A stretch of 64,000 bases of DNA from Elusimicrobiota bacterium (GTDB lineage Bacteria > Elusimicrobiota > UBA8919), in the NCBI GenBank assembly GCA_028718185.1, contig JAQUMH010000001.1, positions 901,186-965,185 of the forward strand, in the 5' to 3' direction. Position numbers and translations under genes: made by a program. Positions within the stretch are counted from its first letter, which is position 1. Every line of letters starts with the position of its first letter. Shown piece after piece: positions 35,583-46,957 of this stretch. Below the pieces are notes generated by a model. It searched no databases. It saw only the letters and a program-made list of their open reading frames with translations, and was not told the origin of the DNA.

Positions 35583-36518
35583 TTAAAATTTTACACTAAA
35601 AGATATTCTTTGAGTGTTGCCAAGGTCACCGTAGGGGATAAAGGCATAGTCAGTGGAAGTATTCGTTATTCGTAGTCCAAGTCCACCTCCAAAACCAGCA
35701 AAATTAGAGGCATTCATGTGTTCATGTGTTGATTTGTTCATTAGTAAGTAACCAATCCGTAATGCTAAAAGATTTATAGGTGCGTATTCTGTGCCGAAGG
35801 ATACTTCTGTTTTGTTATCATATATTTTTCTCTTTACGTCTAATGCAAACGTCATTGCTCTTTTTAGAGTATACCCAATTCCTACCGTTGCAGTTAGCGG
35901 TAGATTATAACCCTCGGAAATAAAGGTCATTTTAGGTCCTATGTTCTGAATCGATAAACCGTATTGTAGCGGCAAAACGAAGCTTTGCTTCATCAACAAT
36001 CCAATATCCATTGCAATGCCTGTAGCCTTTTCACCTGCTATGCCCTGCTGAATTATTTTTAAGTTAGTGCCTAAACTCACCTGCTTACCTGCTAACCCGC
36101 TCATCTGCTTGCTGTAACTAACAGTTACTGCCGTATCATATGCACTGAATGAACCTGTTTTCTGTCTATTCTCATCTCTGCCTTCTATCCTGCCTTGTGT
36201 AAGTGCTACCACGCTTATTCCCATCGTTCCCATACTTGTTGGTCTTACATAAGCCAAAAAATCATGATTGGTATCTGCAATCCACATCGTATGCTGTGCT
36301 ATTATCTCACTTTTACTCAATTGTGATAACCCCGCTGGGTTGTAACTGATTGCACTTGCATCGTTTGCTACTCCTACATATGCTCCACCCATTGAGACGG
36401 CACGAGCAGAAGTGCCGATGTTTAGGAAAGAAGCACCGGTGTTTTGAGAAGCAGTGAGTAGGGAGTAGGAAGTAGGAAGTAAGAAAAAGATAAAAATAAT
36501 AATTAAGATTTTTTTCAT
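35583..36518 (-). CDS. PorV/PorQ-like outer-membrane barrel protein
   Basis: 311 aa with signal peptide, then ASFLNIGTSARAVSMGGAYVGVANDASAISYNPAGLSQL, the hallmark N-terminus of the PorV/PorQ (UPF0164-like) family, followed by alternating strands ending in an aromatic residue (ISFSVKF). In type IX secretion PorV shuttles cargo bearing C-terminal domains. Here the gene lies directly downstream of a giant protein with a FlgD-like C-terminal domain. AAGGTGGT precedes the ATG. The signal peptide core (LLPTSYSLL) is encoded by a 7-bp tandem repeat. Confidence 0.85.
   Translation of the reverse strand: MKKILIIIFIFFLLPTSYSLLTASQNTGASFLNIGTSARAVSMGGAYVGVANDASAISYNPAGLSQLSKSEIIAQHTMWIADTNHDFLAYVRPTSMGTMGISVVALTQGRIEGRDENRQKTGSFSAYDTAVTVSYSKQMSGLAGKQVSLGTNLKIIQQGIAGEKATGIAMDIGLLMKQSFVLPLQYGLSIQNIGPKMTFISEGYNLPLTATVGIGYTLKRAMTFALDVKRKIYDNKTEVSFGTEYAPINLLALRIGYLLMNKSTHEHMNASNFAGFGGGLGLRITNTSTDYAFIPYGDLGNTQRISFSVKF
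36454..36481. repeat. 7-bp tandem repeat in the PorV-like signal peptide
   Basis: Four 7-bp units on the plus strand: GTGAGTA, GGGAGTA, GGAAGTA, GGAAGTA. They encode LLPTSYSLL of the signal peptide on the minus strand. Confidence 0.8.
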
Positions 36519-36629: not shown

Positions 36630-39600
36630 CTATCTTACAACTGCTGCTTTCCCTGTTGCCTTTATGTCTGGATATCCGGCTTTCTTTGCTCTTATTACAT
36701 AAATATACACGCCACTGGCAACATTGGATATGTCCCAATTATACTCGTAACAGTATTTAGAATTTATCGTTAAGGGTTGAGTGCCATTAAGTTCTACTGA
36801 ATGAACATGCTCTGCGGCTATATTATAAATTTTAATCTCAATCTTATCCGCTATCCCGCACTCTATGTGTATTGTCGGTGTTTTACCATTCTTCGCAGGG
36901 TTGGGATAACTGTATATTTCTCCAAGAACAAATGCAGATGATGGTGCTAATTTAACTGCTGCAAATGGCTGTACGGAATTCGCTGTTATTGATATTGTGC
37001 CTTTACCGGTTGCATTGAATTGTCTGCAAAATATGTTACCGGAAAATGTGTAATTACCTGCTACCAGTGTTTTTGATTTAGGTGCATATATGATGCCATT
37101 GTATTCTGCTTTGCCACCTATCAACACTTGCGGGACTTTTGTTGTTTTGTCTCTTCTGCAATTTATATTGCCTTTTTTGTCTATTCCAAGCTCATCATCA
37201 AATGTTATGTCTTTGTCTTCAAATATTTCCGATAGCTCTTCATTGTTAAATGTGTTGTCTATTGTGAAGTTGTTGCACTCTATATCATCAAGTATGTCTT
37301 CATACCAGTGTCTCTCCTGTATGTAGGTGCTTACATATATTACAAAGTTTTTGACTTTGTCACCCGCCAACGATCCAGTGGCGGGCACACCATTTGCGTT
37401 TACTTTTACGTTCCCTACCAACTTTATATCGCCTATGCATACTATTTTTACTTTTCCTTGCAGTTTTATTTCGCTTTTTCCGGTTAGCTGTATTCCGGTA
37501 AAGTAATATGTGCCGGTAGACATTGTTAAACTATCGTTACCGGTTATTACTAATCTGCCTTTTTTGTCTATCGGTTTTTTACCTTTTTGTGTTAGTCCTA
37601 TGTCAACGTTATTGTTTTGGGTAGCTGCTTTGTTTATTATTTGTGTCAGATTTATCGGATACGGGTCTATTTTGGACGCATTCTCTGTTATAGTGCCGTT
37701 TATTGTGCTGCTCCTGGATATTTTTACTTTATCACCATATATGTTGCCGGTTATTACCGGCTTACCTTTTATGGTTATCTCTCCATTACTGCGTATATCC
37801 CCCTTTATGTTAACTTTGCCTGTTATGTTTATTTCTTCGCTGCCTATTAGTGTATATTTCTGCAGTATGGTTACTGTTACGTTCATCGTTTTTGTTTGTT
37901 CGCTGTTACCAACATTATCATTTGTATAATATTCTATGGTATGCTCACCTGATGGTAATGTAAACGCATTTACATATTCTGCATAATTTGTGCTGGTATC
38001 TATTCTGTAGTGTGTTTTGTTTACTCCACTGGCTATGCCACTAGACAGAGGGTCTGTTGCTGTAAAAGAAAGTATTGTATCAGGTGCTATTATTGTTTCT
38101 TGTCCTGATTGTTGTTTGTTGTTGAATAATATTTCAGTTACTGGTGCTGTATTGTCTACATAATATGTTTTCTGGTTTATTTGTTCTGTGTTGCCAAGAT
38201 TGTCGGTTGAGTAGTATCCTATTGCATGGATGCCTTCAGACAAAATAAATGGAGTGGCATAGGTTATTATCTGCCCACTGTCTATTGTATAACTTACCTG
38301 TTTTATTCCGCTGGCTACTTCATTGATTATTGGATCTTGTGTAGTAAACACTATGTTTGTCTGTGAAGTTATATATGTTTTATTGTCCGATGATATATAT
38401 TTTAGTCCATTCTCGGTTATTTGGCTTTGGGGTTTTGTGTTGTCTAATTTTAATGTTAGATCTCTTGTTGGTTCTGTGTTTTCTACGTTGTCTTGTGAGT
38501 AATAATTCATTGAATATATTCCATCCATACCGGTTATATTAAATGTGGTAACGTATTGGGTATATGCTGGGATATTATTTGTGCTGGTGTATATGGTGTA
38601 TTTTGTTTCTTTTATGCCTGATGGTATTGTGCCGGAATCAATCGCTATAAGTGTAAATGCTGATTCCGAGGTTATGTAGTCATTATATTTTGGTTGTGCT
38701 ATACTTACAAATGTCTCTGAAATGCTATTGTCTATTATTACTTTTACTGACCTTTCCGTTTCCTGATTTAATAAGTTATCATAACTGCGATAATATATTG
38801 TGTGTTCGCCTTCAGGTAAAGCAGAAAGATAAAAGGTAGAGATATAAATGGAGTAGAAACTATCATCTATTTTATACTCTGTATATTTTACTTCACAGGG
38901 AATTGTGCTTCTGTCAACTGATACTAAACTTACCGCTGTCTCTGAACTTACAAATACTTTGCCATTATCTATAAACTTAGGACTATGAACTATTAACTGA
39001 CTCTCAGGAGGCGTATTATCCACTATCACTTCAAGAGTTTTTGGCTGTTCGGTGTTACCTATTACATCTACACTATAATAAGTTATCGTATGCGAACTTT
39101 CAGTTGGAATCGTAAATGTCCCTGTATATACTATGAACTCCGAACTATCAACTCTGAATTTTGTCTCTTTCACTCCTAACCCTCTACCATCTCCTACCTC
39201 TATTATATCATCAATTGCTGATAATGAAATATCCGTTAGTGATGTTATATAAGTTTTACTATCAACTATGAACTTTGGACTATGAACTGCCACTTCAGTC
39301 CTCGGTGGCTGTATGTCATGTATCACTTCAAACTTTGCTGTAGTTGTAGATGAATGATTCCCAACCCAATCAGTTGCCTCAACTGTTAATGTCCAAAATC
39401 CATCATCAATACTCAGTGGCTCTATCATTCGTCCACTATTTACCTGTATTGTCGTTCCTTCTTCCAAGTCAGTTAAATATGCATAATATGTCGGCACCGG
39501 GTCAAGGTTATCGGTAACTGTATAGTTTATTGTTATTGTAGAAACTGTCGCAATAAATCTTTCTCCACCAACTGGTGAACTAATTGTTATTTCAGGTGGG

Positions 39601-41468
39601 TTTTCATCAATGATATTAAGGGTACCAGTAGAATATCCACTGTTATATCTATCATTACCTTCAAATCTCACTCTTATATCCAACTGATTTTTTGTAGGTT
39701 TTTTTGGTAAAGTAAATTCAAACATTGCCTCATAAACCGAAAGAGGACTATTCCCTAATAATATCCAATTTTCTCCATCATAATATTCAAGATGTAATAT
39801 TGGAATATCTCCATTAGGAATTAACGGTTCTTCATCAGAATCAAACATTGTTGCATATGCGGTTCCAGTAGATGGATAACTAATAATTGCAGAAAGATTA
39901 GATAAAACAATATTTTTCTTCTCAATTGTTAATTTTACTGAATCACTTGAAGGCAAATGATAGAAACCGTCACCATAATACTCAATATTCATTGTATATT
40001 CACCAGACGGCTGGCTTGCAGTAATGTCAATACTTGCTACACCTTCACTGCTTGTTATAACGGTATAACTGCTGTTGCCAATAGTAAATGTTATGGGATT
40101 ATAAGATATCTTTTTTCCATTTTCAGTTGTAAGTAGTGCTTGTAGTTTTAAAGAATCTGAATACTTAACATTGTTTTGCCCACTGTAGACAATTTGTGTT
40201 TGATGTGGAATTACAGAAACGACAGAATTTGTTCTTGTTTCTTCACATACTGATGGAAAATATACAGTTGCATAATTTGTAATTACCGTCTCTGGTTGTG
40301 CATCACTTTTCACTCTTACGCTTAAATCAAACTTGCCACCTTGTTTTGAACCAACTTCCCCATAGTTATCTATAAATACTGTTAACATTCTCGTTTTTGA
40401 ATCATACCGATATTCAAAATTAGAGGGTGTCTCAGTATTGTTCGTATAATCCTTTCTCTTAAAGTTTGAAACAACTAAACTTGTATCATCCAAACCTTCA
40501 GGTAAAACATTTGTTACATATACTCCATATGCAATCCCTTCTCCTATATTCTCAAACTCAACCGTATAATTCAATGTCTGCCCTGCATATACATATCCTT
40601 TAGGTCCATACATCACATTAGGGTCTCTGGGTCTAAACATTCCATTTGCTGTTTCACCATTAGGTGATGGTGGCGGTTCTGGTGGTTCATCGTCTTCTAT
40701 CGTAAATTTAACAGTTTTCAAATTAAAATTCCCCGCCCAATCACTCGCATAAAAATCAACTTCGTATTCTCCAGGATCTGTATATGATTTTCCCTTTCTA
40801 AATCTTTCTCCAGTAGCTTTATCACGAGCAAAAGCTCTGGGTTCAGGTTCCCCTGATGTATATATATCATCAATAGCAGTAAAACTTACTGTAACTGGGT
40901 TTTTATATGTCTTATCATTTTCTACACTTATATCTTTTATAGTTGGTTCCACATTATCATAAATAAGACGGTGCCAAGTATAACCAATAAGTTCACTAGT
41001 AATACTATATGTTGATATTGCTACTCCATGTTTACTACCTGATGCTTCAATCACACTAGCTACTTTATAAGTTTCATACCATCCTATAAAAATTCTTACA
41101 TGTTTTCCACCATATTTTGGATCATTATATGTTATCAACAAATCTCCTGGATAAATTCCTTGCCACCATGCAACAGGAATTGTAAGTTTTTCTTTTAAAT
41201 GCCAGGCACTGTAATGTCTCCTTAATCCTGACGCCATGTCAACCAAACCAGAACAGTCAAGAGATTTCCCATCCCATGGTTTGAATATATAACCAAAAGT
41301 ATCTTCATTTGTTTCGTCTGGTGTACCATAATCATATGTAATTCCACGATTAAGGTAATTTTCTGCACTATTTACCAATGCTTGCCCTGTTATATTTACA
41401 GAATATATTTTGGATATAGGTAATATTAGAAAAAGCAATGATAATAATCTTAATTTATTTTTTCCCAT
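36630..41468 (-). CDS. Giant secreted multidomain protein: NlpC/P60, DUF11, OmpL47-type repeats, FlgD-like C-terminus
   Basis: 1612 aa with signal peptide. Residues ~25-165 are an NlpC/P60-type cysteine peptidase: DCSGLVDMASG (C72) and GKHVRIFIGW (H123); the third polar residue would be E141, where His is commoner. A DUF11-like domain (YTVEFENIGEGIAYGVYVTN) follows, then Ig-like modules. About five OmpL47-like repeats come next (YITSxTxIxLxAxD, IDxxxxxY, HTIxYYSxDNxGNxE). Then a parallel-beta region ending near 1400 and a C-terminal YPNPAKNG...ASGVYIYVIRA domain. Likely cell-surface, possibly cell-wall active. One palindromic repeat is inserted in frame at 37363. Third gene of the riboswitch operon. 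Confidence 0.8.
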   Translation of the reverse strand: MGKNKLRLLSLLFLILPISKIYSVNITGQALVNSAENYLNRGITYDYGTPDETNEDTFGYIFKPWDGKSLDCSGLVDMASGLRRHYSAWHLKEKLTIPVAWWQGIYPGDLLITYNDPKYGGKHVRIFIGWYETYKVASVIEASGSKHGVAISTYSITSELIGYTWHRLIYDNVEPTIKDISVENDKTYKNPVTVSFTAIDDIYTSGEPEPRAFARDKATGERFRKGKSYTDPGEYEVDFYASDWAGNFNLKTVKFTIEDDEPPEPPPSPNGETANGMFRPRDPNVMYGPKGYVYAGQTLNYTVEFENIGEGIAYGVYVTNVLPEGLDDTSLVVSNFKRKDYTNNTETPSNFEYRYDSKTRMLTVFIDNYGEVGSKQGGKFDLSVRVKSDAQPETVITNYATVYFPSVCEETRTNSVVSVIPHQTQIVYSGQNNVKYSDSLKLQALLTTENGKKISYNPITFTIGNSSYTVITSSEGVASIDITASQPSGEYTMNIEYYGDGFYHLPSSDSVKLTIEKKNIVLSNLSAIISYPSTGTAYATMFDSDEEPLIPNGDIPILHLEYYDGENWILLGNSPLSVYEAMFEFTLPKKPTKNQLDIRVRFEGNDRYNSGYSTGTLNIIDENPPEITISSPVGGERFIATVSTITINYTVTDNLDPVPTYYAYLTDLEEGTTIQVNSGRMIEPLSIDDGFWTLTVEATDWVGNHSSTTTAKFEVIHDIQPPRTEVAVHSPKFIVDSKTYITSLTDISLSAIDDIIEVGDGRGLGVKETKFRVDSSEFIVYTGTFTIPTESSHTITYYSVDVIGNTEQPKTLEVIVDNTPPESQLIVHSPKFIDNGKVFVSSETAVSLVSVDRSTIPCEVKYTEYKIDDSFYSIYISTFYLSALPEGEHTIYYRSYDNLLNQETERSVKVIIDNSISETFVSIAQPKYNDYITSESAFTLIAIDSGTIPSGIKETKYTIYTSTNNIPAYTQYVTTFNITGMDGIYSMNYYSQDNVENTEPTRDLTLKLDNTKPQSQITENGLKYISSDNKTYITSQTNIVFTTQDPIINEVASGIKQVSYTIDSGQIITYATPFILSEGIHAIGYYSTDNLGNTEQINQKTYYVDNTAPVTEILFNNKQQSGQETIIAPDTILSFTATDPLSSGIASGVNKTHYRIDTSTNYAEYVNAFTLPSGEHTIEYYTNDNVGNSEQTKTMNVTVTILQKYTLIGSEEINITGKVNIKGDIRSNGEITIKGKPVITGNIYGDKVKISRSSTINGTITENASKIDPYPINLTQIINKAATQNNNVDIGLTQKGKKPIDKKGRLVITGNDSLTMSTGTYYFTGIQLTGKSEIKLQGKVKIVCIGDIKLVGNVKVNANGVPATGSLAGDKVKNFVIYVSTYIQERHWYEDILDDIECNNFTIDNTFNNEELSEIFEDKDITFDDELGIDKKGNINCRRDKTTKVPQVLIGGKAEYNGIIYAPKSKTLVAGNYTFSGNIFCRQFNATGKGTISITANSVQPFAAVKLAPSSAFVLGEIYSYPNPAKNGKTPTIHIECGIADKIEIKIYNIAAEHVHSVELNGTQPLTINSKYCYEYNWDISNVASGVYIYVIRAKKAGYPDIKATGKAAVVR
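37363..37385. repeat. CCCGCCA palindromic element inside the giant protein gene
   Basis: CCCGCCA (37363-37369), 9-nt loop, TGGCGGG (37379-37385). It differs by about two bases from the copy at 56464-56486 in the pst operon. In this gene it encodes the stretch PATGSLAG in frame. Confidence 0.8.
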
Positions 41469-42637
41469 TTTATTACTTTGAATCCTTCATTTAACTTATT
41501 TTCTAACCATACTATCTGATATACACCACCATTCCAACTTATACAAGGAGCAACAAATATTGAATTAACTGAATTAAATAATTGATATTTAGAAACTAAC
41601 TTACCTTTAAAATTATATTTTATAACAAGATTTTGATATATTTTATTCTTTTCTGAATCATTATTTGCAGTAGATACAAAAACATAAACATTACCACTAC
41701 TATCTTCACACAAAGGACTATACCATCTCTGATTGGGAATTTTGATATATATAATCTTTTCAATTTTTTTAACATTTTTTTTATTAGACCAAAATAAAAA
41801 AGTATAACGAGTGCTTTCCATAAAACTGGGATATTTGTTTCTTTCGCTCTTTTCCAAGGTTTTAAGATATTCTCTCACTGAATCAATTCCAAAATATTCT
41901 GCTTGTTTAAAAACTTTATCATGTTCTGTTCTAGTATTATAATATGAAGGCATAATGCTAAAACTTGGAGCATCAATAGAATCTTCACCAATTTCTAAAT
42001 ATATAAATTCTTTTGGTGAAATTGCTCTCATATCACTGTAGTTTTGAATTGTTAGTTTTCCTAATTTTTTTAATAAATCAAATATTTTATTCTTTCCTAA
42101 AACTTTTCCTTTGATTTCCTTATAATATTTTTCATCAACACCTTTAAGTTGTTCATAAACATTTTTATTAACATATCCATCAATTATATATGAAACTATA
42201 CTGCCATTAAAATTATATTTTTTAATTACATAAGGTTTTAACTCTTCTCCTGGATGAATAAAAATACTATTATCAGATATTTTTATCTCATCTTTACCAG
42301 CAACATACTCTTGAGGTTCTTTTGGAATCTTTTCTAAATCAATTGTTGTCTGTAATTTTCCTTCTTTGTCATACTTCTTTACTCGCCAGTTTACTGCATC
42401 AAAAATGTATATATTTCCTTCTTTATCCACATCCATTGCCACTGGTCCCCTTACTTCTCCTTTTGTATATATCCCAAACTCATCATCCCCTTTACCCCAT
42501 TTGCCTTGTATTATTACTTTCGGTTCATATTGCTCTAAATAAGTTGTGGTTGATTTGTTAATTTCATTTTGAGTAGAAACCTCAGCGAATAAGTTGGAAG
42601 TCACCAAAATAAACAATACCATACTAATAATCTTCAT
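41450..42637 (-). CDS. Secreted protein with NHL-type beta-propeller repeat, unknown function
   Basis: Start chosen at 42637: AAGGAG about 10 nt upstream, and the protein then opens with a signal peptide (MKIISMVLFILVTSNLFAEVS). The 395 aa contain VRGPVAMDVDKEGNIYIFDAVNWRVKKYDKEGKL, a clear NHL/6-bladed-propeller repeat, and later weaker blades (YNFKGKLVSKYQLF). Probably a periplasmic or surface binding module. It overlaps the giant gene by 19 bp, so translation is coupled. Confidence 0.75.
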   Translation of the reverse strand: MKIISMVLFILVTSNLFAEVSTQNEINKSTTTYLEQYEPKVIIQGKWGKGDDEFGIYTKGEVRGPVAMDVDKEGNIYIFDAVNWRVKKYDKEGKLQTTIDLEKIPKEPQEYVAGKDEIKISDNSIFIHPGEELKPYVIKKYNFNGSIVSYIIDGYVNKNVYEQLKGVDEKYYKEIKGKVLGKNKIFDLLKKLGKLTIQNYSDMRAISPKEFIYLEIGEDSIDAPSFSIMPSYYNTRTEHDKVFKQAEYFGIDSVREYLKTLEKSERNKYPSFMESTRYTFLFWSNKKNVKKIEKIIYIKIPNQRWYSPLCEDSSGNVYVFVSTANNDSEKNKIYQNLVIKYNFKGKLVSKYQLFNSVNSIFVAPCISWNGGVYQIVWLENKLNEGFKVIKWEKIN

Positions 42638-42704
42638 AACCTTTTTTCTCCTTCGTTTTGTAATTAAATCTGTAAAATTGTTGTTTTTACCCCTATTCTT
42701 TTCT

Positions 42705-45700
42705 CTACTTTTCAGTGAAATCATATGTTGGAAGATATGAATCCATCTGCTCTTTTGTTAAAATATATGCTTTGCATTTAACTACCGTATTTAATGTTAA
42801 TCCCCACATTATTGTTGACTGGCAATTATATTGTTTTACTGTTTTAGCTGGAATATTAATATCCCATCTTATCATATTCATTGGATAGTATTTTTTATCA
42901 ATCCAGTTGGGAACATCATACAGAGTATATAAACCAACTGCAGAACCAAAATTACTATATGCTGAAGGATATACTATTAAAGACATATTTTCAGCATCTT
43001 TTAGTCCATCATTTCTTACTTCCATGGTATATGTTATCGTCTGTCCTGGGCTTATTGCACTGCCAGGTCCCCAAATCTTTACCTTTAAGTCAGGTTGAGG
43101 CGGTTTACCATAATCAAGTCGGGTTATTGACATTGATAATTTTTTAGGTGTTACACTTTCATCAAGATATGCAGAAAGTAATCCATATATCGGACCGGTA
43201 ATGGCTCCTTTTAAATTTGTTTCATTAATAGTACTTTTCTTAACATAACTATAACTCATACCCGAACCTAAACTTGAGTTGTATGACATTATTGAAAATC
43301 CTTCATTGTTACATGGATTACTTATTTCATCTATCCGTAGTAGTGTTATTATTGTTGTTAAATTACCAGTATAATATCCCGCAGCCGTTCCTTCAACTGC
43401 TGTCTGTAAATAATGTATTTTAGTGTTTGGATATTCTGTTTCTGTTTGATATATTATGCTACCTGATAAATTTATTCTATCTGCAATAGATTGTGACCCT
43501 ATCTCTGTTATTGTTAATGTTGCATTGTATATATCATAATTACCACTTCCAACAACAGATTCCTGTATCACTGCTTCTATTATACCACTACCTGCACCTT
43601 CAACATAACCATTCATATATATATTTCTTTCTTTTGTATTTAGATATGATATCCCTTTCCAAAAACAAGGATATGAAGCATTCCCTACATTTATTGTAAA
43701 ACTACTTTTGAATAAACCTTTATCTGCAAATGAACCTGTTTTTATATCTATCTTTTCAAAATTTTGAAAATTCAAACTACCAACAATACTTTCACCGTGA
43801 AAAACTGTGTTATTTAATACTATTCTTTGTGATTTTAATGTTTCATAAATTAAGTTATCTTTTGAATATGTTTCTGATAGATTTGATATACTAACAGGAG
43901 ATTCTATATTGAGACACTTTAATACAATTGTTCCATTACCTAAAGGATTAGTTATAATGCCGCAATTACTGATAATACTACCTGTAAAACTATTAGTATT
44001 GTAATATATTGCTATCCTACCTCCGCCTCCACCATTGCCCTTATCACTTCTATCACTTCCATTTCCACCATTAGATGTTATCGTTCCATTACCTAAAATT
44101 GTATTTGCTTTGATGTATACACTACCACCACTACCACCACCTGCCGGCCAATTGCCACCCCAACTCCCATCACCACCATTCGTTCCATTCGCTGAAATTA
44201 TTCCATTAAATGTCAAAGTGTTCGCTGTTATCTTTATTGCTCCTCCACCTGCGCCTCCTGTTCCAAGTGATGGTGCAGATGCTCCTCCGCCACTTCCAAG
44301 GTCTGTTGGCGTATACATACTTCCATAAACAGAACTCATTCCACCAAAACCACCGTAACTTCCACCTGCTGATGTATTGCCGGTGGGTGCTCCGGGTCCC
44401 TTATACTGCGGATACCCTTTGCCATCTACTGTAATTTTACCACCTGCTTGTATATTTAATGTATCTTCTATTTCAAGTTCAAAATCCGGGTCTTGATTAC
44501 TATGGGTTAATATCCCGCCACTAAATATTGTCAAATTACTCAATGATAGTTTAGTGTTTAAATAAAATATACCGCCACTGTCTATCTGTAAAGCATCAAA
44601 ACCTTCTTTTTTCAATATTCCAGCATTATGATAAAATGCTCCGCCATTTTCCAACTTGAAATTGGTTACTGCAATATTGCCTGTATTTGTAACTACTCCT
44701 AAATCTTTTATGTTTAAATTAACAGATGTCACAACATCATTATCAGATATTTCTAATGTCGCTTTATTTTTTACTGTTATTTTATCAAAGGTGTGTACTC
44801 CATCTATTATTGGTGTGGTTCCTTGACTATTATTATTATCTATCGTCAAATCACCATAATTTTGTGTTGTAGATTTCAGATATATTGTTCCAGCACCACC
44901 GTAAGCATTTATTGCACCTGCTCCTCCATATGCTGTTATTATGCCTGTAAAATTGTTTGTCGTGTAATATATCGCTATCCTGCCTCCGCCACCGCCACAT
45001 CCTCTTTCGCTACGGTTACTATCACTACCACCATTGGCTGTTATCGTTCCAGTACCTGAAATTGTATTTGCTGTAATGTATACACTACCACCGCTACCTC
45101 CACCTGCCGGCCAATTACCTCCCCAACTCCCGTCACCACCATTTGTTCCATTTGCTATTATTGCACCATTAACTGTCAACGTGTTTGCTGTTATCTTTAC
45201 TGCTCCTCCACCTGTGCCTCCTGTTCCAACTGATGGTGCAGATGCTCCTCCGCCACTTCCAAGGTCTGTTGGCATATACATGCTTCCATAAACAAGACCC
45301 ATTCCACCAAACCCACCATAACTACCGCCTGCTGATGTATTACCGGTAGGTGCGCCAGGTCCCTGATATTGTGGATACCCCTTACCTGTTACATCTATCT
45401 TTCCACCTGTATCTATTGTAAGATTCTCATGTACTTCAAGTTCAAAATCACTGTCTTTCTGGGTATGGGTCAATATTCCGCCATTCACTACCGTTAAGTT
45501 ACCCAAAGACAATTTAGTGTTTAAATAAAATGTACCACTATTACCTATCTGCAAACTGCCTTCTCCAGATACAGGTCCATTGACTATTATATTGCCACTG
45601 TTATGGTATAAAGAACTTCCACTCTCTAATGTAAGATTTTCTAACGCCATTTTGCCTTCGTTGGTAACTATACCATTATTTGTCACTGTCAAATTTGTTG

Positions 45701-46655
45701 TTATTAATTCATTACCACTCTCTACTTTAAGGTTTGCTCTATTGCTCACTAAAATACTATCAAAAGTAAGAATATTAGTACTAACTACAAATGGTGTAAT
45801 AAAACAGGATTGGTTATTATTTTTTATTATTAAGTCACCATAACTCTGTGTAGTAGATTTCAGATATATTGTCCCAGCACCACCATAAGAATTTAGTGCA
45901 CCTGGACCACCATATGATGTTATTATGCCTGTTAAATTGTTTGTCATGTAATATATCGCTATCCTGCCTCCGCCACCGCCACATCCTCTTTCGCTACGGT
46001 TACTATCACTACCACCGTTGGCTGTTATTGTACCAGTACCTATTACAATATTGGCGTTGATGTATACACTGCCACCGCTACCACCACCTGCCGGCCAATT
46101 ACCACCATAGCTCCCATCACCGCCATTTGTTCCATTTGCTGTTATTACACCATTAACTGTCAACGTGTTCGCTGTTATCTTTACTGCTCCTCCGCCTGTT
46201 CCACCTGTTCCAAGTGATGGTGCAGATGCTCCTCCACCACTTCCAATATCTATTGGTAAGTATATGCTTCCATAAATAGTACCCATTCCACCAAACCCGC
46301 CATAACTACCCCCTGCTGATGTGTTGCCGGTGGGTGCTCCAGGTCCTTGATACTGTGGATAACCTTTGCCAGTTGCGTCTATCTTTCCATTAATTATAAC
46401 GGTGGAAGCTGACAATTCTAACCTACCACTACTACCTGAACCATTATATTGGGTTATAAAGAGTGTTCCATAGATTTGCACTGAATTTGTATAGGTATGA
46501 GTACCGCTTAAGGTATATGTTTCGGTGGCGAGAATTATTAAATCACTTGAATTGTCAGTTAATGCAAATACTTGTATAGGGGAAAAAACTAAAATGTAAA
46601 AAATTATTATACCTGCAAATAAATGTTTAATAAAAATGTTTTTATTCTTTCTCAT
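42705..46655 (-). CDS. Secreted glycine-rich adhesin-like repeat protein
   Basis: 1316 aa from the ATG at 46655, which opens with a signal peptide (FAGIIIFYILVFSPIQVFA); the open frame reaches 46697 and neither start has a clear RBS. Three near-identical ~160-aa glycine-rich blocks (KGYPQYQGPGAPTGNTSAGGS, then AGGGSGGSVYI and CGGGGGRIAIYY) alternate with beta-helix-like NLTVxxGGILTH segments. The C-terminus has a DUF11-like ISPGQTITYTMEVRNDGLKDAENM domain. No FlgD-like tail. First gene after the c-di-GMP riboswitch, so probably a regulated surface adhesin or matrix protein. Confidence 0.8.
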   Translation of the reverse strand: MRKNKNIFIKHLFAGIIIFYILVFSPIQVFALTDNSSDLIILATETYTLSGTHTYTNSVQIYGTLFITQYNGSGSSGRLELSASTVIINGKIDATGKGYPQYQGPGAPTGNTSAGGSYGGFGGMGTIYGSIYLPIDIGSGGGASAPSLGTGGTGGGAVKITANTLTVNGVITANGTNGGDGSYGGNWPAGGGSGGSVYINANIVIGTGTITANGGSDSNRSERGCGGGGGRIAIYYMTNNLTGIITSYGGPGALNSYGGAGTIYLKSTTQSYGDLIIKNNNQSCFITPFVVSTNILTFDSILVSNRANLKVESGNELITTNLTVTNNGIVTNEGKMALENLTLESGSSLYHNSGNIIVNGPVSGEGSLQIGNSGTFYLNTKLSLGNLTVVNGGILTHTQKDSDFELEVHENLTIDTGGKIDVTGKGYPQYQGPGAPTGNTSAGGSYGGFGGMGLVYGSMYMPTDLGSGGGASAPSVGTGGTGGGAVKITANTLTVNGAIIANGTNGGDGSWGGNWPAGGGSGGSVYITANTISGTGTITANGGSDSNRSERGCGGGGGRIAIYYTTNNFTGIITAYGGAGAINAYGGAGTIYLKSTTQNYGDLTIDNNNSQGTTPIIDGVHTFDKITVKNKATLEISDNDVVTSVNLNIKDLGVVTNTGNIAVTNFKLENGGAFYHNAGILKKEGFDALQIDSGGIFYLNTKLSLSNLTIFSGGILTHSNQDPDFELEIEDTLNIQAGGKITVDGKGYPQYKGPGAPTGNTSAGGSYGGFGGMSSVYGSMYTPTDLGSGGGASAPSLGTGGAGGGAIKITANTLTFNGIISANGTNGGDGSWGGNWPAGGGSGGSVYIKANTILGNGTITSNGGNGSDRSDKGNGGGGGRIAIYYNTNSFTGSIISNCGIITNPLGNGTIVLKCLNIESPVSISNLSETYSKDNLIYETLKSQRIVLNNTVFHGESIVGSLNFQNFEKIDIKTGSFADKGLFKSSFTINVGNASYPCFWKGISYLNTKERNIYMNGYVEGAGSGIIEAVIQESVVGSGNYDIYNATLTITEIGSQSIADRINLSGSIIYQTETEYPNTKIHYLQTAVEGTAAGYYTGNLTTIITLLRIDEISNPCNNEGFSIMSYNSSLGSGMSYSYVKKSTINETNLKGAITGPIYGLLSAYLDESVTPKKLSMSITRLDYGKPPQPDLKVKIWGPGSAISPGQTITYTMEVRNDGLKDAENMSLIVYPSAYSNFGSAVGLYTLYDVPNWIDKKYYPMNMIRWDINIPAKTVKQYNCQSTIMWGLTLNTVVKCKAYILTKEQMDSYLPTYDFTEK
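43920..46380. repeat. Three long glycine-rich coding repeats
   Basis: Near-identical DNA blocks of roughly 450-500 bp at about 43920-44430, 44870-45395 and 45840-46380, spaced about 0.95 kb, all within the glycine-rich gene. They could recombine and change copy number. Confidence 0.75.
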
Positions 46656-46732
46656 ATTGAGCTGTATTCGGATAAAATTAATTTTTATTATATACAACTT
46701 TTACAAAATAAAAACCAAATTACCTGTTTTAA

Positions 46733-46756
46733 GGTTCGCTTACGATGTAGCAAACC
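46733..46756 (-). promoter_or_regulatory. Candidate alternative hairpin of the riboswitch expression platform
   Basis: Minus strand GGTTTGCT (46756-46749), 8-nt loop, AGCGAACC (46740-46733). Its 5' arm overlaps the 3' strand of aptamer stem P1 (46757-46752), so the two cannot form together. No good U-tract follows, so it may act on translation or RNA stability rather than as a classical terminator. Confidence 0.5.
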
Positions 46757-46886
46757 CATCAACCTTCGGTAACCTGGCTAGCGTAAATAGTCCTTATTAT
46801 TATTTATTACTTTTTTTTACCTGACTATCTTTAGCCCCATAGCTTTGCGAATCACACTTTTCAGTATGACAGCCCGTTCGGGTTTT
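46752..46886 (-). promoter_or_regulatory. Cyclic di-GMP-I (GEMM-I) riboswitch aptamer
   Basis: Read on the minus strand: closing stem AAACCC (46885-46880) with GGGTTT (46757-46752); GGGC; hairpin CATACT-GAAA-AGTGTG (46868-46853) with GNRA loop; CGCAAAGC (46849-46842); second stem AGATAGTC/GGACTATTT (46830-46823 with 46793-46785); and GGTTACCGA (46774-46766). The three c-di-GMP contact positions known from the Vibrio Vc2 structure all match: G20 (46874), A47 (46846), C92 (46769). G rather than A at position 20 favours c-di-GMP over cGAMP. It precedes the adhesin-like gene by about 100 nt. Confidence 0.85.
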
Positions 46887-46928
46887 AACAAATACTATAT
46901 AAAATAAAAAGAACTAACAAACAGTAAA

Positions 46929-46957
46929 AGTATAACCGAATATCAGCATTTTGTCAA
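46929..46957 (-). promoter_or_regulatory. Strong sigma-70 promoter of the riboswitch operon
   Basis: Minus strand TTGACA (46957-46952), 17-nt spacer, TATACT (46934-46929). Expected transcription start is near 46922, about 36 nt before the aptamer. Confidence 0.8.

Follow-up and report, generated by a model that had tools for sequence, protein, structure and literature searches.

The base at position 20 of a GEMM-I aptamer marks its ligand type: G is the c-di-GMP-type base, selecting c-di-GMP over cGAMP, and A is the cGAMP-type base (GEMM-Ib); binding of cGAMP, to some degree, is possible for G20 aptamers too. The translocon of type IX secretion (T9SS) is SprA. In the pilM leader of Geobacter, the aptamer and the terminator have one strand in common, and the leader acts as an ON switch (PMC9262584). 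Tandem c-di-GMP-I riboswitches are also described, with 347 doublets and 12 triplets, in a review that treats whole aptamers and does not mention half aptamers (PMC9481103). The window analysed here, a stretch of 64,000 nt from an Elusimicrobiota genome (G000, 3.03 Mb), carries a GEMM-I aptamer on its minus strand, and its leader is read, with a probability of roughly 0.76, as a c-di-GMP-I riboswitch that acts on transcription in the pilM (ON) manner and belongs to a genome-wide c-di-GMP regulon.

Aptamer, promoter and terminator of the window leader

The leader comprises the following features.

46929..46957, minus strand: sigma-70-type promoter, TTGACA-17-TATACT, 11/12 consensus bases
46765..46884, minus strand: c-di-GMP-I (GEMM-I) aptamer, RF01051, 44.7 bits, E 1.7e-5
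46714..46778, minus strand: intrinsic terminator hairpin, GCCAGGUUACC / GGUAAUUUGGU, dG −26.8 kcal/mol
46705..46714, minus strand: U-tract UUUUUAUUUU of the terminator, from the sequence

A cmscan of the whole 64-kb window revealed RF01051 (c-di-GMP-I) as the sole Rfam family above its gathering score (35 bits), the match covering model positions 1-87, which is the full model. The leader thus passed the covariance-model check on the minus strand of 46700-46950 that the sequence-only reading had proposed, and the three ligand-contact nucleotides named there as retained correspond in the RF01051 alignment to G20 (46874), A47 (46846) and C92 (46769). The GNRA loop is kept and the P2/P3 layout is that of RF01051; P3b consists of 7 bp closing an A-rich loop of about 30 nt. 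Neither inside the P3b loop (p 0.18) nor downstream (p 0.65) does the window leader have a significant second 3' half. The window switch by itself is an ordinary member of the GEMM-I family. Its ligand is probably c-di-GMP, as judged from the binding-site bases; specificity for cGAMP was rejected because position 20 is G and not the A of GEMM-Ib. The promoter proposed earlier is also confirmed: a match of 10/12 is reached by 2% of shuffles, and like promoters with 11-12/12 matches lie 7-14 nt upstream of four sister aptamers in the window's genome and of several in relatives.

The terminator was absent from the earlier account of the leader and is found here as the expression platform. Its 5' arm is the 3' half of the aptamer (GCCAGGUUACC), followed by the closing strand GGUAAUUUGGU and then the U-tract, and the overlap between aptamer and terminator is 14 nt. 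Among 5000 dinucleotide shuffles, 10 reach the 10/10 complementarity ahead of the T-run. In 15 distinct leaders, drawn from the window, its genome and relatives, 95% of the cells of the terminator stem are paired; four pairs display double changes (pair 4, for instance, goes from G-C to A-U), and none of 500 shuffles reaches the covariation score of the stem. A second hairpin with a U-tract was not found between the terminator and the start codon. Before the terminator 3' arm is transcribed, the aptamer fold of a transcript from 46888 is 0-2.4 kcal/mol off the best fold, and in a transcript from 46921, with its longer 5' leader, other folds beat the aptamer by 3.9-5.5 kcal/mol. Once the 3' arm is transcribed, the terminator fold is ahead by 7-14 kcal/mol. 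As modelled, these fold energies are those of a kinetic ON design.

Since the 5' arm of the terminator is the 3' strand of the aptamer, the two are mutually exclusive, from which an ON switch of the pilM type is predicted, with c-di-GMP probably turning the operon on. The aptamer, the promoter, the terminator, the mutual exclusion and the regulon described below are established by sequence and statistics. In the proposed mechanism, transcription would start near 46921 and, at high c-di-GMP, the aptamer would be bound once its 3' half (46781-46765) emerges. The bound ligand would lock this half in P3/P1b, where GGUAAUUUGGU could not capture it; the terminator would then fail, and the surface-protein operon would be transcribed. 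When ligand is absent, the 3' half would pair with GGUAAUUUGGU, and transcription would stop at the U-tract (46714-46705). The proteins so produced would belong to a c-di-GMP regulon that spans the genome and makes T9SS-like cargo and PorV-family proteins.

The operon and the age of its link to the riboswitch

Four genes follow the leader.

42705..46655, minus strand: 1316-aa glycine-rich triple-repeat protein, AgmC-like (NF047640), with signal peptide
41450..42724, minus strand: 424-aa NHL-like protein, partial NHL match to NF035926, homologues in relatives
36630..41468, minus strand: 1612-aa protein with NlpC/P60-like N-terminus, Ig-like and OmpL47 repeats and T9SS type-A-like C-terminus
35583..36518, minus strand: 311-aa PorV/PorQ-family outer-membrane protein, NF033709, 180.5 bits against a cut-off of 90

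The overlapping order of the 1316-, 424- and 1612-aa genes had been given correctly; these three overlap by about 20 nt, and the fourth, PorV-family gene is 111 nt further on. The three repeats of the 1316-aa protein partially match AgmC, a gliding protein, over its N-domain; the 64.7 bits (E 7e-18, 4 stretches) stay short of the curated cut-off of 275. The NHL-type description of the second gene holds as a partial NCBIfam match, which at 30.6 bits falls far short of the cut-off of 350. For the third gene, the NlpC/P60 label is plausible; the N-terminus keeps a DCSG motif but, taken as an isolated domain, scores below the Pfam cut-off of PF00877 (19.8 against 23 bits, E 8e-4); no relative of solved structure was found for this N-terminus by sequence. 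The 1612-aa protein has its best relatives in Elusimicrobia MAGs. The OmpL47-type repeats (NF047446, 201.8 bits, 7 stretches), the sorting-domain-like C-terminus and the downstream PorV-family gene go beyond the earlier description. The matches of the last 100 aa of the 1612-aa protein are marginal, with 24.4 bits for TIGR04183 (cut-off 23; 24.1 bits in the genome search with neighbours) and 30.2 bits for PF18962 (cut-off 27).

The operon content, which the sequence-only reading did not recognise, is a T9SS-like cargo and PorV set; sets of this kind are found again downstream of most GEMM-I aptamers in this genome and its relatives, and the operon proteins may reach the surface via the SprA/PorV system. 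The proposal made in that reading, of a surface-protein operon headed by a c-di-GMP riboswitch, is supported as the best account of the locus.

The operon homologues in the relatives G005 and G002, and in the more distant G036, where the operon is rearranged, gave no GEMM-I match when E values up to 10 were allowed; those of G005 and G002 lie directly behind unrelated housekeeping genes (kdsB-like in G005). The link between riboswitch and operon in the window is not ancient, because the homologous operons of G005 and G002 are without a detectable aptamer; an ancient origin of the arrangement was rejected on these homologues and that of G036. The riboswitch seems to have been put ahead of the operon within the window's lineage. 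At C3_49856-type loci (PorV, FliG-like, CTD, PorV), the aptamer is kept across families.

The genome-wide regulon and the sister leaders

The genome of the window contains at least 13 GEMM-I matches, six of them above the gathering score, and flanks could be assessed for 11 of the 13, the other two being at contig ends. T9SS-CTD genes, PorV-family genes or both follow ten of these 11 aptamers (p about 1e-8, with our own CTD profile counted), and the eleventh lies ahead of pilin-like genes. In 9/11, a TIGR04183 or PorV-family gene starts no more than 7.5 kb away on the same strand, as compared to 9.3% of random positions (p 2e-8, permutation test); the enrichment p value overstates independence, because many aptamer loci are paralogous copies. 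GEMM-I matches are present in all seven other genomes of the host's family, and CTD+PorV pairs are recurrent neighbours of the aptamer in G001, G003, G005, G006, G007, G036, G077, G102, G103 and G121. The cargo and shuttle set of the window's genome is unusually large: its 3.0 Mb contain 65 matches to the T9SS sorting domain and 53 to the PorV family.

An aptamer is located upstream of the gene for a SprA homologue in three relatives, directly before it in G006 and G011 and with two small genes between in G003. A GEMM-I match before SprA was not found in the window's own genome, and in G001 this place holds no more than a weak match to c-di-GMP-I-GGC (19.8 bits, E 3.7). The SprA homologues score 120 bits (G000) and 130 bits (G003) with TIGR04189, below the equivalog cut-off of 200. 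GldM/PorM (PF12081) and PorU-type C25 (PF01364) were not detected, PF01364 being silent in control genomes too, and a complete T9SS is not claimed because of these two results.

Several further loci of these genomes were recorded. Aptamers with A20 (AAAAGC or AATAGC) occur at L014 1211-1297 (G000:C3:80010), L085 754-834, L103 9925-10004, L089 and L100, and at most f6 loci (L040, L044, L046, L049, L054, L055); SprA homologues are encoded downstream of those in L085 and L103. Further along from C3_80010, one of these A20 aptamers, G000:C3 has an 18,319-aa open frame (about 86,600-141,532, starting in L133) whose C-terminal domain is T9SS-like; bases near the start of the frame are masked or unknown. 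The window's genome has four full GGDEF domains, of which that at G000:C11:62553-63029 (L136) has N replacing D at the guanine-contacting position (NDKNGHLAGN), making it a candidate for altered nucleotide specificity. At L015 3045-5000 and L107, a riboswitch heads a cluster of PorV, FliG-like/TPR (TIGR00207, 120 bits) and CTD protein genes; in G011 the cluster runs on into genes that look like MotA/MotB and may encode a motor in place of GldL/GldM. In G011, a dual-3'-half GEMM-I leader (L108, G011c) also lies ahead of a PilT-like ATPase gene.

Three platforms cover most leaders of the host's family. In type I, the single 3' half is the terminator arm (window, G005c, G005g, G007a). In type II, the aptamer 3' half (Y1) is followed 26-91 nt downstream by a second 3' half (Y2), and both successive halves are able to pair with the one 5' half (X). 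In type III, an antiterminator strand lies within a separate terminator. Dual-3'-half leaders are L018, L017, L019, L016 and L020-L023 in the window's genome, and further L086, L088, L090-L096, L099, L102, L105, L108 and L045. Y2 is present in 20 leaders of the host's family and G011 (21 listed) and in 1/27 from other Elusimicrobiota families. The covariance-model matches of 130-146 nt in sister leaders had been taken as simple insertions, a view dropped for the dual-3'-half reading after inspection.

The 3' half found outside the family resembles Y2 more than Y1 in 20/21. Pairing of the 5' half with the Y2 of the same leader has a mean of −16.5 kcal/mol as compared to −11.4 kcal/mol with the Y2 of other leaders, and pairing with the Y1 of the same leader is somewhat better (−11.7 kcal/mol) than with that of others (−9.7 kcal/mol). 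In most dual-3'-half leaders, the terminator strand pairs with Y2 and not with Y1; the window's genome also has paralogous 'class B' leaders among them, and these have a separate terminator. Most simply, X:Y2 would be the antiterminator bound by ligand, with X:Y1 as its competitor; alternatively, the ligand may act on X:Y1, with OFF control.

Alternative readings and comparison with known systems

The aptamer of the window might also be imagined under OFF control, with the ligand favouring termination or blocking translation. Such control is known from Cd1 of C. difficile (PMC9262584), and an OFF-type layout is displayed by the type III sister leaders C3_49856, G002c, G005i, G003a and G006d, whose separate terminator contains an antiterminator strand that is the complement of the aptamer 3' half. 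The only terminator in the window, however, has its 5' arm in common with the aptamer, so that the two cannot coexist, and no other U-tract hairpin was found ahead of the start codon; OFF control is considered unlikely here.

A window aptamer sensing 3',3'-cGAMP in place of c-di-GMP is highly improbable: A20 aptamers are known from this genome (C3_80010) and from relatives, but the window has the c-di-GMP-type G at 46874, and a clear Hypr (D-to-S) GGDEF was not seen in the genome, one of the four full GGDEF domains having N at the guanine-contacting position. It is likewise very doubtful that the match is the relic of a decayed riboswitch and the hairpin a plain terminator or attenuator. The moderate score of 44.7 bits, the long A-rich P3b loop and the homologous operons of relatives without an aptamer would fit decay, but the bases that bind ligand are all retained, as are the GNRA loop, the promoter and a terminator that covaries and excludes the aptamer.

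At the level of the phylum, it is reasonably probable that a c-di-GMP riboswitch regulon, partly of cGAMP type, controls a T9SS-like apparatus and its cargo in Elusimicrobiota, and that many of its leaders are a bistable device of one 5' half and two competing 3' halves, the distal one usually being the terminator arm, with the window as the single-3'-half form. This context suggests that, in an uncultured phylum, the secretion of surface proteins is mainly controlled by second-messenger riboswitches, and the sister leaders offer a natural route to a bistable switch, the duplication of half an aptamer. In the open-access papers searched, no link between second-messenger riboswitches and type IX secretion was found, nor any report of half-aptamer duplication.

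With RF01051, the window aptamer has in common the full-length match, G20, A47, C92, the GNRA loop and the P2/P3 layout, and it departs from the family by its long A-rich P3b loop. As in the pilM GEMM-I of Geobacter metallireducens, the strand that stabilises the aptamer is the terminator arm, giving mutual exclusion; pilM is described as a cGAMP sensor (PMC9262584), whereas the window aptamer has the c-di-GMP-type G at position 20. Two aptamers in a row, as in tandem c-di-GMP-I riboswitches (PMC9481103), are also found at C1_651849, G003b/c, G006b/c and G007b/c; unlike these tandems, the window has a single aptamer and the dual-3'-half sisters have one 5' half only. The T9SS of Bacteroidota shares the SprA homologue (TIGR04189, 120-130 bits), the PorV family and type A CTDs, and differs in that SprA here is below cut-off, GldM and the PorU-type C25 peptidase are undetected and PorV-family copies are many. 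As compared to these systems, the window switch is of a known kind, and the new parts are the regulon and the half-aptamer duplication.
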